Source: Gorillibacterium timonense
GTDB taxonomy: Bacteria > Bacillota > Bacilli > Paenibacillales > NBRC-103111
Reading direction: 5' to 3'
Length of the DNA: 64,000 nucleotides
Assembly (NCBI RefSeq): GCF_001457415.1
Contig: NZ_LN881724.1
Span: 558,001 to 622,000, forward strand
This document shows, one piece after another, positions 1,471 through 56,909 of the stretch. How positions within the stretch are numbered: position 1 is the first letter of the stretch; each line of letters begins with the position of its first letter. A program made the translations under genes and the position numbers. The notes under the pieces are model-generated. The model searched no databases, was not told where the DNA came from, and saw nothing but the letters and a program-made list of their open reading frames with translations.

Positions 1471-1499
1471 TTGAGTTTCAGGGCATCGTATGCTATAGT
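1471..1499 (+). promoter_or_regulatory. Sigma-A promoter of the ABC-F gene
   Basis: A TTGAGT -35 box (1471-1476) and a TATAGT -10 box (1494-1499) are separated by exactly 17 bases, with an extended TG two bases before the -10. Transcription would start near 1506, about 235 bases before the ABC-F start codon, leaving a long untranslated leader. Confidence 0.75.
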
Positions 1500-1530
1500 T
1501 CTTTCAACGAAATCGATTGGAGTTGAAAAG

Positions 1531-1551
1531 ATGGATAACCTTTCTTGCTAA
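1531..1551 (+). CDS. Leader peptide MDNLSC of the ABC-F attenuator
   Basis: A six-codon reading frame (ATG GAT AAC CTT TCT TGC TAA) begins ~25 bases after the predicted transcription start. A weak purine stretch (GGAG at 1519-1522) lies 8 bases upstream. Its coding bases are the 5' arm of a long hairpin with 1598-1618. That is the arrangement expected of a ribosome-stalling leader that senses ribosome-targeting antibiotics, as known in principle for several ABC-F and Erm genes. The peptide is too short for any homology argument; the case rests on position and base pairing. Confidence 0.6.
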   Translation: MDNLSC

Positions 1552-1720
1552 TGAATCTGGATAAGACAACGGAGCGAACGTTACCGTTTGTTTTATTATT
1601 CATGCAAGAAAGTTATCCTTTCTTTTCGCTCGGACCGCATAACCTTGTCATCCCCCTCGGAGGGTTGGCTTCGCTATAGGTTTGAGCTGCGAGAAGATAC
1701 TTTCTTGCAGCTCATTTTTT
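1533..1720 (+). promoter_or_regulatory. Three-segment transcription attenuator
   Basis: Segment 1 (1533-1555, inside the leader ORF) is complementary to segment 2 (1598-1618). The core of segment 2 (gcaagaaagt, 1604-1613) is also perfectly complementary to segment 3 (actttcttgc, 1699-1708), and segment 3 is the 3' arm of the intrinsic terminator just before the gene. Pairing 1:2 leaves segment 3 free to form the terminator. A ribosome held on the leader ORF would free segment 2 to pair with 3 and break the terminator. Base complementarity is seen directly; the switching is inferred. Confidence 0.75.
1684..1720 (+). terminator. Intrinsic terminator upstream of the ABC-F gene
   Basis: Arms 1684-1696 and 1701-1713 form a nearly perfect ~12-bp stem with a short loop, followed by ATTTTTT. 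It ends only 8 bases before the Shine-Dalgarno sequence of the ABC-F gene, so it must act within that gene's own transcript. Confidence 0.85.
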
Positions 1721-1741
1721 ATTTTCCGGGAGGCGATGACG

Positions 1742-3220
1742 ATGTCATTGATCAACGTAACCAACCTGACCTTCAGCTATGACGGCAGTTACGATACCAT
1801 ATTTGAAAATGTCAGCTTTCAAATCGATACCGATTGGAAGCTGGGGTTCACTGGGAGAAACGGCAGAGGAAAAACAACCTTTCTCCAGTTGCTGCTCGGC
1901 AGCTATGAATACAGCGGCAAAATTTCGGCGAGTGTCGGCTTTGATTATTTTCCTTTCCCGGTCGAGAACAAGGAACGGGATACCCTTTCGGTGGTTGGCG
2001 ATATTTATCCGGATTATCAGCATTGGGAATTGGTGCGTGAGCTTTCGTACCTGGAGGTGTCAGAGGAGGTTCTAGATCGGCCCTTTGCCACGTTGTCGAA
2101 CGGGGAGCAGACGAAGGTGCTGCTGGCTGCCCTGTTCTTGAAGGAAAACCGCTTTCTCCTGATCGACGAGCCGACCAACCACCTGGATATGAAGGCCCGC
2201 AAGCTGGTCAGCGATTATCTCCGCTCTAAGAGCGGGTTTATCCTCGTGTCTCACGACCGGTTCTTCCTCGACAACTGCGTCGATCACATTCTCTCCATCA
2301 ACAAGACGGATATCGAGATCCAGAAGGGGAATTTCTCGGAATGGTGGGACAACAAGACGAGACAGGACCGCTTCGAGCTTGCGGAGAATGAGAAGCTGAA
2401 GAAGGACATCAAACGCCTGTCTGAATCCGCCAAGCGAACGAGCGGGTGGTCACATGAGGTGGAGAAGACGAAGAACGGAACGACGGATTCCGGTAACAAG
2501 ATCGATAAGGGCTATGTGGGCCATAAAGCCGCCAAAATGATGAAGAGATCAAAGTCGCTTGAGAATAGGCAGCAATCGGCGATCGAGGACAAATCCAAGC
2601 TGCTGAAAAATATCGAAAGCTCCGACAGCCTGAAGCTCTCTCCTCTTGTCTATCACAAAAGCCGACTCGTCGAGCTGGAAAACGTCTCGATCTCCTACGG
2701 AGAGAAAGAGGTTTGCCAGGATGTGGGCTTTACGATTGAGCAGGGGGATCGGGTTGCGCTTCTCGGCCGGAACGGCTCCGGGAAATCCAGCATCCTCAAG
2801 CTGATCTGCGGTGAAGCGATTCCCTATACGGGTACCTTCCGCTTAGGGAGCCAAATGAAGATCTCTTATGTTTCCCAGGATACCTCGCACCTTCAAGGAA
2901 ATCTGACGGATTATGCAGCCCGGAGCGGGATCGATGAAAGCTTGTTTAAAGCGATTTTGCGCAAGCTCGATTTTTCCAGACTGCAATTTGAAAAGGACAT
3001 GTCCACGTTTAGCGGCGGCCAAAAGAAAAAGGTGCTGATCGCAAAAAGCCTCTGCGAGAAGGCCCATCTCTATGTCTGGGATGAACCGCTCAACTTTATC
3101 GATGTCCTCTCCCGCATGCAGATCGAAGAGCTCTTGTTGGAGTACGCGCCGACGATTCTTTTTGTGGAGCACGATAGTGAGTTCTGCCATCATATTGCGA
3201 CGAAGGTGATTGAACTCTAG
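1742..3220 (+). CDS. Lsa-type ABC-F ATPase, probable antibiotic target-protection protein
   Basis: A 492-residue soluble protein with two ABC ATPase domains and no membrane segments, the size of Lsa/Vga/VmlR proteins (~490-550). Domain 1 has Walker A GRNGRGKTTF (~38-47), signature LSNGEQTKV and Walker B LLIDEPTNHLD. A charged linker of ~80 residues follows, then domain 2 with GRNGSGKSS, FSGGQKKKV and VWDEPLNFID. Both catalytic glutamates are present. The wording of many blocks matches Lsa family proteins, which displace lincosamides, pleuromutilins and streptogramin A from the ribosome. ATG 1742 is preferred over ATG 1736 because GGGAGG lies 8 bases before it. The leader attenuator implies antibiotic-induced expression. 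The drug spectrum cannot be read from sequence. Confidence 0.88.
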   Translation: MSLINVTNLTFSYDGSYDTIFENVSFQIDTDWKLGFTGRNGRGKTTFLQLLLGSYEYSGKISASVGFDYFPFPVENKERDTLSVVGDIYPDYQHWELVRELSYLEVSEEVLDRPFATLSNGEQTKVLLAALFLKENRFLLIDEPTNHLDMKARKLVSDYLRSKSGFILVSHDRFFLDNCVDHILSINKTDIEIQKGNFSEWWDNKTRQDRFELAENEKLKKDIKRLSESAKRTSGWSHEVEKTKNGTTDSGNKIDKGYVGHKAAKMMKRSKSLENRQQSAIEDKSKLLKNIESSDSLKLSPLVYHKSRLVELENVSISYGEKEVCQDVGFTIEQGDRVALLGRNGSGKSSILKLICGEAIPYTGTFRLGSQMKISYVSQDTSHLQGNLTDYAARSGIDESLFKAILRKLDFSRLQFEKDMSTFSGGQKKKVLIAKSLCEKAHLYVWDEPLNFIDVLSRMQIEELLLEYAPTILFVEHDSEFCHHIATKVIEL

Positions 3221-3388: not shown

Positions 3389-4294
3389 ATGGGGAAATTC
3401 GTAATCCGGAATCCGAAGGAAGACGAAGCAGAGAAGATCGAAAAGCTGGGGTTTGTCCTGAAGATGCTGTACCTCTATCACGGCGATCTGGAAAGGGAGA
3501 GCATGTTCTTCGCCGTTAACAGCGAAGACGAGCTTCTGGCCGTAGCGCATCTCATGCCTCATGATACCTTCGATGCGGTCGGACACGATGAGGAGAAGGG
3601 GTTTATCCGTTATCTGACGTATGAAATCAACTTTGCGGACGAGGTGGAAGACGAGGAGATCAAAGACGCTCTGACTGAAGCGCTCATCGCACGAGCCAGA
3701 GAGATAAAAGCTTTGAATCCGGACAAGCGGATCGTGATGGCTCAATATGTGGATACGGACAATCTCTCCGAGTTGAGCTATTATCTGAAGCGCGGGTTTA
3801 CGGTACACGATACGATTGTCGTATTCAAATACGACCTAAGCCGGGACATTCCCCGTTATCCGATGCCGGAAGGGGTGCGCGTTGTCCCGTATTCGCTGGA
3901 TAACGAAGAAGCGGTGGAACAGTATCATCTTGCAGAGCTGGCTTCGTTCGATGGCGTGGCGTGGAGCTTGAACCATTTGCGTTGGATGCAGGGCGGGCCG
4001 GAAGTGGTCAATTTCTGCGCATTCAGCGGCAGTCGACTGATCGGCAACACCTCGACCTGGAAAATCACGGACGAGCGGAGCGCGACGGAGAACGTCTTCG
4101 TCACCCCGGAATGGCGTAAGCAGGGCATTGCACGGAATATCATCTGCGCCGCGCTTGAGCATCTGAAGCAGGAGGGCAAAACCATTGCCACCTTGGGCAC
4201 TCACGGAACCAATCGAAAGGCGATTCGCCTCTACACCCAGATCGGATACGAGTTGTATGGCTTCCGGCTGACGATCGGCTACGAAGTCGAATAG
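3389..4294 (+). CDS. GNAT family N-acetyltransferase, two-domain
   Basis: 301 residues. The C-terminal half (~155-301) is a recognisable GNAT fold with the acetyl-CoA loop WRKQGIARNI followed by a helix and the conserved NRKAIRLYTQIGYE segment. The N-terminal half (~1-140) is a more diverged GNAT-like region, giving a tandem architecture. The substrate is unknown. An AGGAG (3371-3375) lies 13 bases before ATG 3389; a nearer ATG at 3379 is out of frame. The gene stands alone, with ~170 bases to the ABC-F gene and ~310 to the sigma factor. Confidence 0.75.
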   Translation: MGKFVIRNPKEDEAEKIEKLGFVLKMLYLYHGDLERESMFFAVNSEDELLAVAHLMPHDTFDAVGHDEEKGFIRYLTYEINFADEVEDEEIKDALTEALIARAREIKALNPDKRIVMAQYVDTDNLSELSYYLKRGFTVHDTIVVFKYDLSRDIPRYPMPEGVRVVPYSLDNEEAVEQYHLAELASFDGVAWSLNHLRWMQGGPEVVNFCAFSGSRLIGNTSTWKITDERSATENVFVTPEWRKQGIARNIICAALEHLKQEGKTIATLGTHGTNRKAIRLYTQIGYELYGFRLTIGYEVE

Positions 4295-56732: not shown

Positions 56733-56770
56733 CCGGAAACCGCCTGCTGCGGGCGGGATTCATCGGTCCA

Positions 56771-56858
56771 CTCACTTCCCTCCGCTGGTATGATCCAGTT
56801 CAGGTTCCAAGGGTCCGGAGCTGCATCGCTCCATCTCAGCCGGATTGGCCCCCCTAGT
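56771..56858 (-). ncRNA. TPP riboswitch (THI element)
   Basis: Leftward strand: AGGGGGGCC, then GGCTGAGATGGAG (the CUGAGA pyrimidine sensor), GGACCCTTGGAACCTGAACTGG and ATCATACCAGCGGAGGGAAG. All conserved THI-box blocks are in order. Together with the downstream terminator it stops transcription of the thi operon when thiamine pyrophosphate is abundant. Confidence 0.96.
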
Positions 56859-56909
56859 GATTGTTGGCAGTATTCAATTAGCCTAGTGCATGTTTGCAAA
56901 CACGCTCTA

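Follow-up and report, generated by a model that had tools for sequence, protein, structure and literature searches.

The Lsa-type ABC-F gene studied here, from Gorillibacterium timonense, is preceded by a leader that very probably works as a ribosome-controlled transcription attenuator of the resistance gene, sensing arrest of a ribosome at a start codon irrespective of the peptide encoded. Because most of the related leader open reading frames (ORFs) examined consist of a start codon and a stop codon only, the peptide would have no part in the switch, and arrest at initiation or release would be the event sensed. We also favor, with less confidence, the broader reading of a bacterial attenuator family with a coding-free start-stop sensor of ribosomes frozen before any peptide bond forms (or at fMet release), controlling both ABC-F and Cfr genes, in which cfr acquired the leader in at least some lineages by deletion of an intervening abc-f.

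The window is the whole 64,000-nucleotide stretch analysed (G000:C7:558001-622000 of a 5.26-Mb genome), and Table 1 lists the features of its leader. The promoter, leader ORF, three competing segments and terminator proposed in the first-pass annotation all lay within about 1 base of where it had placed them, as judged from the sequence and from promoter and terminator scans. Its layout of terminator and gene ribosome site also held, with a gap of 7 bases (T run to GGGAGG) instead of the 8 it had counted. The antiterminator proved longer than first described, as the 5' arm of the terminator also pairs upstream (1629-1636 with 1679-1686). Scans of positions 1340-1800 returned two promoter-like sites (one on the minus strand) vs 0.6 expected, and two terminator-like sites (one within the 5' hairpin) vs 0.4 expected. 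The minimum free energy of 1506-1740 was -95.8 kcal/mol vs a shuffle mean of -57.5 (sd 4.3; z -8.8), with 0/200 shuffles equally low. The leader had no Rfam match at gathering score, and at E up to 1 the scan returned mir-368 alone, with 18 bits vs a gathering score of 58.

Table 1 Features of the leader and the ABC-F gene in window coordinates.
Feature	Position	Strand	Remarks
Sigma-70-type promoter	1471..1499	+	TTGAGT (1471), 17-nt spacer, TATAGT (ends 1499); TG precedes the second hexamer
Shine-Dalgarno GGAG of leader ORF	1519..1522	+	8 nt 5' of ATG 1531; conserved in the 69-leader alignment
Leader ORF, ATG GAT AAC CTT TCT TGC TAA	1531..1551	+	MDNLSC, 6 codons
Segment 1, ctttcttgc	1540..1548	+	Partner is segment 2; 97.9% of cells paired in the alignment helix
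Anti-antiterminator hairpin	1526..1625 (approximate limits)	+	Segments 1 and 2 plus the hairpin between them
Segment 2, gcaagaaagttat	1604..1616	+	Core gcaagaaagt at 1604-1613, pairing continues to ~1616; partners are segment 1 or the terminator 3' arm
Inner antiterminator helix, 5' strand ctcggacc (CTCGGACC)	1629..1636	+	Fold of the window leader
Inner antiterminator helix, 3' strand ggtttgag (GGTTTGAG)	1679..1686	+	Overlaps the terminator 5' arm
Intrinsic terminator	1683..1720	+	Stem 1683-1714 (14 pairs), six T at 1715-1720
Segment 3, actttcttgc	1699..1708	+	Part of the terminator 3' arm; partner of segment 2 in the antiterminator
ABC-F gene ribosome-binding site, gggagg	1728..1733	+	Read from the sequence
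Lsa-family ABC-F ribosomal protection protein, 492 aa	1742..3220	+	ATG 1742; NCBIfam NF000167, 769.7 bits, cut-off 750

The downstream gene had been called an Lsa-type ABC-F, and its product is indeed a member of the Lsa family by a score above the curated NCBIfam cut-off, with a predicted protective role against pleuromutilins, lincosamides, and streptogramin A. Its best solved relative by sequence is Lsa(A) (7nhk, E 2.8e-125). Downstream of the ABC-F gene, at 3389-4294, is a gene for a GNAT acetyltransferase, and the window also carries a TPP riboswitch (RF00059, 78.5 bits) on the minus strand at 56760-56865.

To place the leader among relatives, we scanned a species-genome collection with the ABC-F protein and kept the best 80 of 593 stretches, which had 77–83% identity to the protein in the best segment; the closest relatives among the matches listed were from Paenibacillus, Brevibacillus, and Cohnella. 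The same leader, identified by rule, was present at 70 of the window plus these 80 loci, including loci from Desulforamulus, Desulfosporosinus, Clostridium, and Shimazuella. Eleven of the 80 had no leader score (L022, L026, L027, L065, L066, L080, L081, and L085-L088). L080 is cut at a contig end, and L022, L026, L027, L065, L066, and L081 encode close ABC-F relatives but have no leader that the rule accepts as complete; L027 retains the 3' half of the leader alone, terminator included. Alignment A1 comprised 69 rows (the window and 68 of the best 80 of 593; L029, with a longer distance to the gene, was excluded) and showed a conserved Shine-Dalgarno sequence, ATG, segment 1 TTTCTTGC, segment 2 GCAAGAAAGTTAC, and terminator GAGCTRC..GTAACTTTCTTGYRGCTC. 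A covariance model of the 5' hairpin (R1), built from 41 of the 70 leaders, matched 79/104 genomes of the window's family (E up to 0.01) and 47/398 genomes sampled from its class (E up to 1e-6), after removal of opposite-strand mirror matches and of G335:C48 (contig edge). Copies were taken from the matches listed in these scans. Since the R1-scanned genomes overlap in species with the loci from the protein scan, we removed identical leaders from the pooled set, so that 70 leaders and 163 parsed copies (L220 could not be parsed) gave 199 distinct leaders.

This distribution bears on a rival account of the terminator, that it merely ends the upstream gene or is constitutive and regulates nothing. 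An open reading frame does end at 1351, upstream of the leader, as that account would have it, but a promoter lies between this frame and the leader, and the 5' hairpin occurs in 79/104 family genomes and before a second, unrelated gene; we regard an unregulated terminator as highly improbable. A loose TTGNNN-N14-20-TANNNT pattern was found 5' of 68/70 leaders (a raw count, given without a chance level) and an extended -10 pattern 5' of 59/70 (both from the window and best 80 of 593). As the promoter pattern lies upstream of the leader, a transcription start 3' of the leader ORF appears unlikely.

In the related leaders the ORF is usually reduced to its minimum. The start codon was followed directly by a stop in 152/199 distinct leaders (TAA 106, TAG 35, TGA 11), in 55/81 after clustering these at 0.85 similarity, and in 50/70 leaders of the window and best 80 of 593 loci (TAA 31, TAG 11, TGA 8). 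By gene, the 199 divide into 116/163 start-stop leaders before ABC-F, 33/33 before Cfr, and 3/3 before unassigned genes. Controls were far lower: 20/527 other ATGs in the same upstream regions (loci from the best 80 of 593) were start-stop, as were 82/2159 ATGs preceded by an SD-like tetramer at the 80 loci with the leaders removed. The leader start was assigned by rule (an ATG near segment 1 or, failing that, a GTG), is ambiguous in some cases such as L149, and partly builds in the start-codon conservation in the pooled-leader counts and stop-pairing analysis; all 70 leaders of the window and best 80 of 593 have ATG (69) or GTG (1) at the start position. Some relatives have a TTG or ATG immediately behind GGAG that could serve as an alternative start (e.g., MKRIM in L033 and L067); it was rejected for lack of Shine-Dalgarno spacing.

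The remaining leaders have short ORFs. The 47/199 that are not start-stop all have at most 8 sense codons, and the 20/70 among the window and best 80 of 593 have 2 to 8. With six sense codons in place of a start-stop, the window leader is an ordinary member of the family. Mapped onto a quick ABC-F tree, in which 16/78 inner branches were well supported, the start-stop label needs 14 changes, at least 3 of them forced by well-supported branches, so the leader types were probably interconverted more than once.

The first-pass annotation had proposed a check for conservation of MDNLSC, and the peptide proved not to be conserved: 152/199 distinct leaders have no second sense codon. The same count argues against MDNLSC as an arrest peptide, on which a drug would stall the ribosome at a specific codon. 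Many longer leader ORFs do end in SC before the stop, as such a peptide might, but this ending is the segment 1 DNA (TTTCTTGC) read in one frame, and other leaders read FLA. In excerpts of PMC9226507, moreover, the vmlR uORF functions no worse as MDN or MDK than as MIN, and less well as MRK. We found no conserved peptide among the 199 distinct leaders and consider an arrest peptide quite improbable. A trp-type attenuator sensing a shortage of charged tRNA has a similar layout of competing hairpins, but the 199 distinct leaders contain no conserved regulatory codons, most have no such codons at all, and the leaders mainly serve ABC-F and Cfr genes, which leaves that possibility with a vanishingly small probability. 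The earlier description of the leader as trp-like thus survives for its topology and not for amino-acid sensing, as no amino-acid codons are conserved. Since 152/199 distinct leaders lack a second sense codon, the leader most likely registers a ribosome arrested on the start codon and not one stalled partway through a peptide, and it probably needs no peptide to do so.

We folded 69 leaders (the window and 68 from the best 80 of 593 loci) with and without a ribosome, modelled as a 31-nt footprint around the ATG held single-stranded; the energies are equilibrium values, not co-transcriptional ones. Ribosome-free, the off-state (anti-antiterminator plus terminator) was better in 69/69 leaders, by a median of 15.2 kcal/mol. 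With the footprint on the ATG, the antiterminator was better in 61/69 (median -3.7). The effect depended on position, with the antiterminator favored in 35 of the 69 for a footprint shifted by -5, 59 at +3, 43 at +11, 21 at +19, 10 at +27, and 0 at +35; beyond +35 only two single leaders switched, at +59 and +99. The eight leaders without antiterminator preference despite the footprint were L041, L043, L049, L053, L069, L072, L079, and L082, four of them from Clostridium, Desulforamulus, and Desulfosporosinus. The window leader, in which the short uORF and its Shine-Dalgarno sequence lie inside a hairpin that competes with the antiterminator, had an off-state of -82.9 vs -65.2 for the antiterminator without a ribosome, and an antiterminator of -59.4 vs -56.8 for the terminator with one. 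In this model the predicted terminator and antiterminator are mutually exclusive and are switched by a ribosome on the uORF, and the comparison of occupied and free leaders called for by the first-pass annotation came out as it had anticipated in 61/69 leaders, including that of the window. Segment 1 ends at +16 from the ATG (A = +1) in 41/70 leaders (range 15–21; window and best 80 of 593), and the initiating 30S toeprint on the vmlR uORF is reported, in the excerpts of PMC9226507, 16 nt downstream of the A.

RNAalifold on the consensus alignment did not favor the bare antiterminator helix (-11.0 vs -19.3 for the terminator), and single-sequence folding with the inner helix favored the antiterminator in 65/69 leaders. 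The inner helix is 88.9% paired across the 69 leaders (window and 68 of the best 80 of 593), and CTCAAA, located after segment 2, pairs with TTTGAG of the terminator 5' arm at a probability >0.5 in 65/69 before the 3' arm exists.

Covariation, which had been expected in all three segments, was clear for the terminator, weak for segments 2 and 3, and not above shuffles for segments 1 and 2. The terminator had 38 two-sided cells, with 0/500 shuffles as many, and a covariation score above all 500. Segment 2 was 99.3% paired with the terminator arm over 12 pairs (69 leaders, best 80 of 593), and the on-state helices were 95.6% paired with three two-sided pairs (14/500 shuffles as many); neither the on-state covariation score (181/500 as high) nor the paired share (77/500) exceeded shuffles. 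The 5' hairpin of segments 1 and 2 was nearly invariant (97.9% paired), with no covariation above shuffles, and covariation thus failed as proof of this pairing. Near-invariance is expected, which is no proof, because one segment must pair with two partners.

From the parts of the leader and how well they are conserved, from the start-stop pattern, and from the computed energies, all of them read directly from the sequence or calculated from it, we infer the following sequence of leader translation, ribosome arrest, termination, and read-through, as well as the class of drug. A ribosome would load at ATG 1531. With no drug present it would depart quickly, segments 1 and 2 would pair, and the terminator would halt transcription. 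A blocker of the peptidyl-transferase center (a pleuromutilin, lincosamide, or streptogramin A) would instead hold the ribosome at the start codon with its footprint covering segment 1, and the freed segment 2 could then pair with the terminator 3' arm. The inner helix may aid the antiterminator by capturing the terminator 5' arm while the 3' arm is still to be transcribed, and RNA polymerase would continue into the ABC-F gene. The event sensed would be arrest of initiation, or of fMet release at the stop, with no role for the peptide. The earlier proposal that a ribosome on the leader frees segment 2 for the terminator 3' arm is therefore supported in its core by conservation and energies, with the arrest most likely at the start codon.

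The stop codon could also be read without reference to translation. In start-stop leaders it overlaps a GTAA-like sequence whose partner is GTTAC in segment 2, and it is strongly paired in the folded hairpin (mean probability 0.88–0.97). The stop after the ATG might therefore be a by-product, with GTAA kept for GTTAC, the ATG hardly translated, and some other signal sensed (the speed of RNA polymerase, a protein, or a ligand, for instance). Each of the three stops fits this pairing, which alone would permit TAA, TAG, TGA, and TGG. TGG was seen once vs ~3 expected under independence, a depletion that was not significant (Fisher p 0.30) and failed as proof of selection for a stop. The spacing from GGAG to ATG is 12 nt in 29/50 start-stop and 9/20 short-ORF leaders (best 80 of 593) vs 8 nt in the window, and for the start-stop leaders this disfavors a coding role and sits well with a by-product. 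A further point on that side is TTNTTT, the NusG pause motif named for vmlR, which occurs in 183/199 leaders vs ~66 in mononucleotide shuffles, although the T-rich hairpin arm alone may explain the excess; the motif lies between segments 1 and 2, at about 1588-1600 in the window.

Against a by-product, the U of AUG is mostly unpaired in start-stop leaders (mean 0.26), yet ATG or GTG stands in 70/70 leaders (window and best 80 of 593). In nine leaders (ME, MK, MIK, MRK) GTAA is shifted by 3 or 6 nt and TAA remains an in-frame stop, and in four it is shifted by 2 nt and the ORF reads through to end after segment 1. The 47 ORFs that are not start-stop are all short, as given above, and the computed folding switch is positioned at the ATG. 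A pairing by-product is thus rather unlikely. Because the U of AUG is unpaired, the shifted GTAA stays in frame, and the other ORFs are short, we favor a coding role, in which the start-stop is likely translated.

Comparisons with known systems are with excerpts of the cited papers. Termination of ABC-F gene transcription without drug and read-through with drug via short uORFs is established (PMC9226507, PMC10201436, PMC12421871), in agreement with the first-pass annotation. By analogy, vmlR of Bacillus subtilis is close to the present leaders: it combines a short uORF in an anti-antiterminator hairpin, an antiterminator, an intrinsic terminator, and an ABC-F gene, its start-codon toeprint lies 16 nt downstream, and its peptide sequence is largely exchangeable, as would be the case here (PMC9226507). 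It differs in its three-codon uORF, MIN, followed by an SD-sequestering hairpin, whereas the window leader has six codons and most related leaders examined have ATG-stop. The uORFs of cplR, vmlR2, and lsaA differ in being peptide-coding consensus uORFs, found with uORF4u, and the term start-stop is absent from the main text of that paper (PMC10201436). In the are5sc and tiaA attenuators, ribosomes stall on the start codon of the uORF under lincosamides, tiamulin, and pristinamycin IIA, and there are likewise terminator and antiterminator conformations, but the ribosomes are those of Streptomyces and the uORFs are MLV and MVGDDDISG (PMC12421871).

Start-stop uORFs have been described for eukaryotes, and the AUG-stop uORF of plant NIP5;1 is similarly a minimal ORF acting as a regulatory ribosome trap; it responds to boron and affects translation and mRNA decay rather than transcription termination (PMC5972666). 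In bacteria, start-stop sites from ribosome profiling are thought to be translated, with potential regulatory functions reported for E. coli, whereas the 18 putative sites in Campylobacter have 2 or 3 codons and are internal and out of frame, and no attenuator is described in the excerpts of PMC11955535. Our search of the open-access literature, in the parts of the papers it returned, found neither a resistance-gene attenuator built on a start-stop nor a leader of this kind in front of cfr, with subscription papers and preprints outside its scope. We therefore regard the mechanism as known (ribosome-controlled attenuation, as in vmlR) and the proposed start-stop sensor and the sharing of the leader with cfr as the new part. 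If the start-stop reading is correct, the smallest possible ORF would serve as a drug sensor in bacteria, and induction of resistance by drugs that act before the first peptide bond would be explained without a stalling peptide. Such leaders could be missed by searches for conserved uORF peptides, and they make it testable whether release at the start-stop or initiation itself is the sensed step.

The window's genome carries a second copy of the leader at G000:C4:90047-90145 (locus L090; E 9.6e-15 with the R1 model). This leader is a start-stop (ATG-TAG) with its own terminator, and the gene it precedes encodes a Cfr-family 23S rRNA methyltransferase (TIGR04432, 629.3 bits, cut-off 550). Among the matches listed, 164 copies (L089, L090, and L093-L254) comprised 127 before ABC-F genes, 33 before Cfr genes, and 4 before unassigned genes. 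A Cfr copy was found in 33 of the 123 genomes with fetched copies (the window's genome and 32 others), in 32 of them alongside an ABC-F copy. Between leader and cfr, pieces of an abc-f reading frame remained in 10/33 copies (L158, L166, L176, L177, L185, L204, L214, L227, L229, and L239) at E up to 0.05, two of them only at 0.005–0.011, and shuffled leader-cfr intervals gave 0 matches in 330 even at E 0.5. The simplest account suggested by these remnants is an original order leader-abcF-cfr that lost abc-f by deletion, which brought cfr under the leader of abc-f. As the remnants differ between copies, this deletion may have occurred more than once, and, if so, would be one way for a regulatory leader to become common to two resistance genes. 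A blastn search (11-base words, E up to 1e-3) with the cfr-type leader of L090 had no match in 72,556 plasmid records, of which 181 encode Cfr relatives at E up to 1e-60.

In 32/33 loci a second, longer uORF lies upstream of cfr (1742-1849 in L090), with a conserved peptide of ~36 residues (M..EVVDD.VNRF...RLPE.Y.SIDRCT); in L219 it diverges after the first half, and in L150 there is none by pattern. L085-L088, loci without the start-stop leader, have related uORFs (MTELEVVDVYV..) ahead of their ABC-F genes. L211 and L241 have start-stop leaders without abc-f or an intact cfr in the fetched stretch, and a paralogue of ribosomal protein L4 further downstream; L211 retains a cfr-type uORF and L241 a scrap of cfr, and the 150-residue piece of the L4 paralogue in L241 scored 166 bits against TIGR03953 (cut-off 130).
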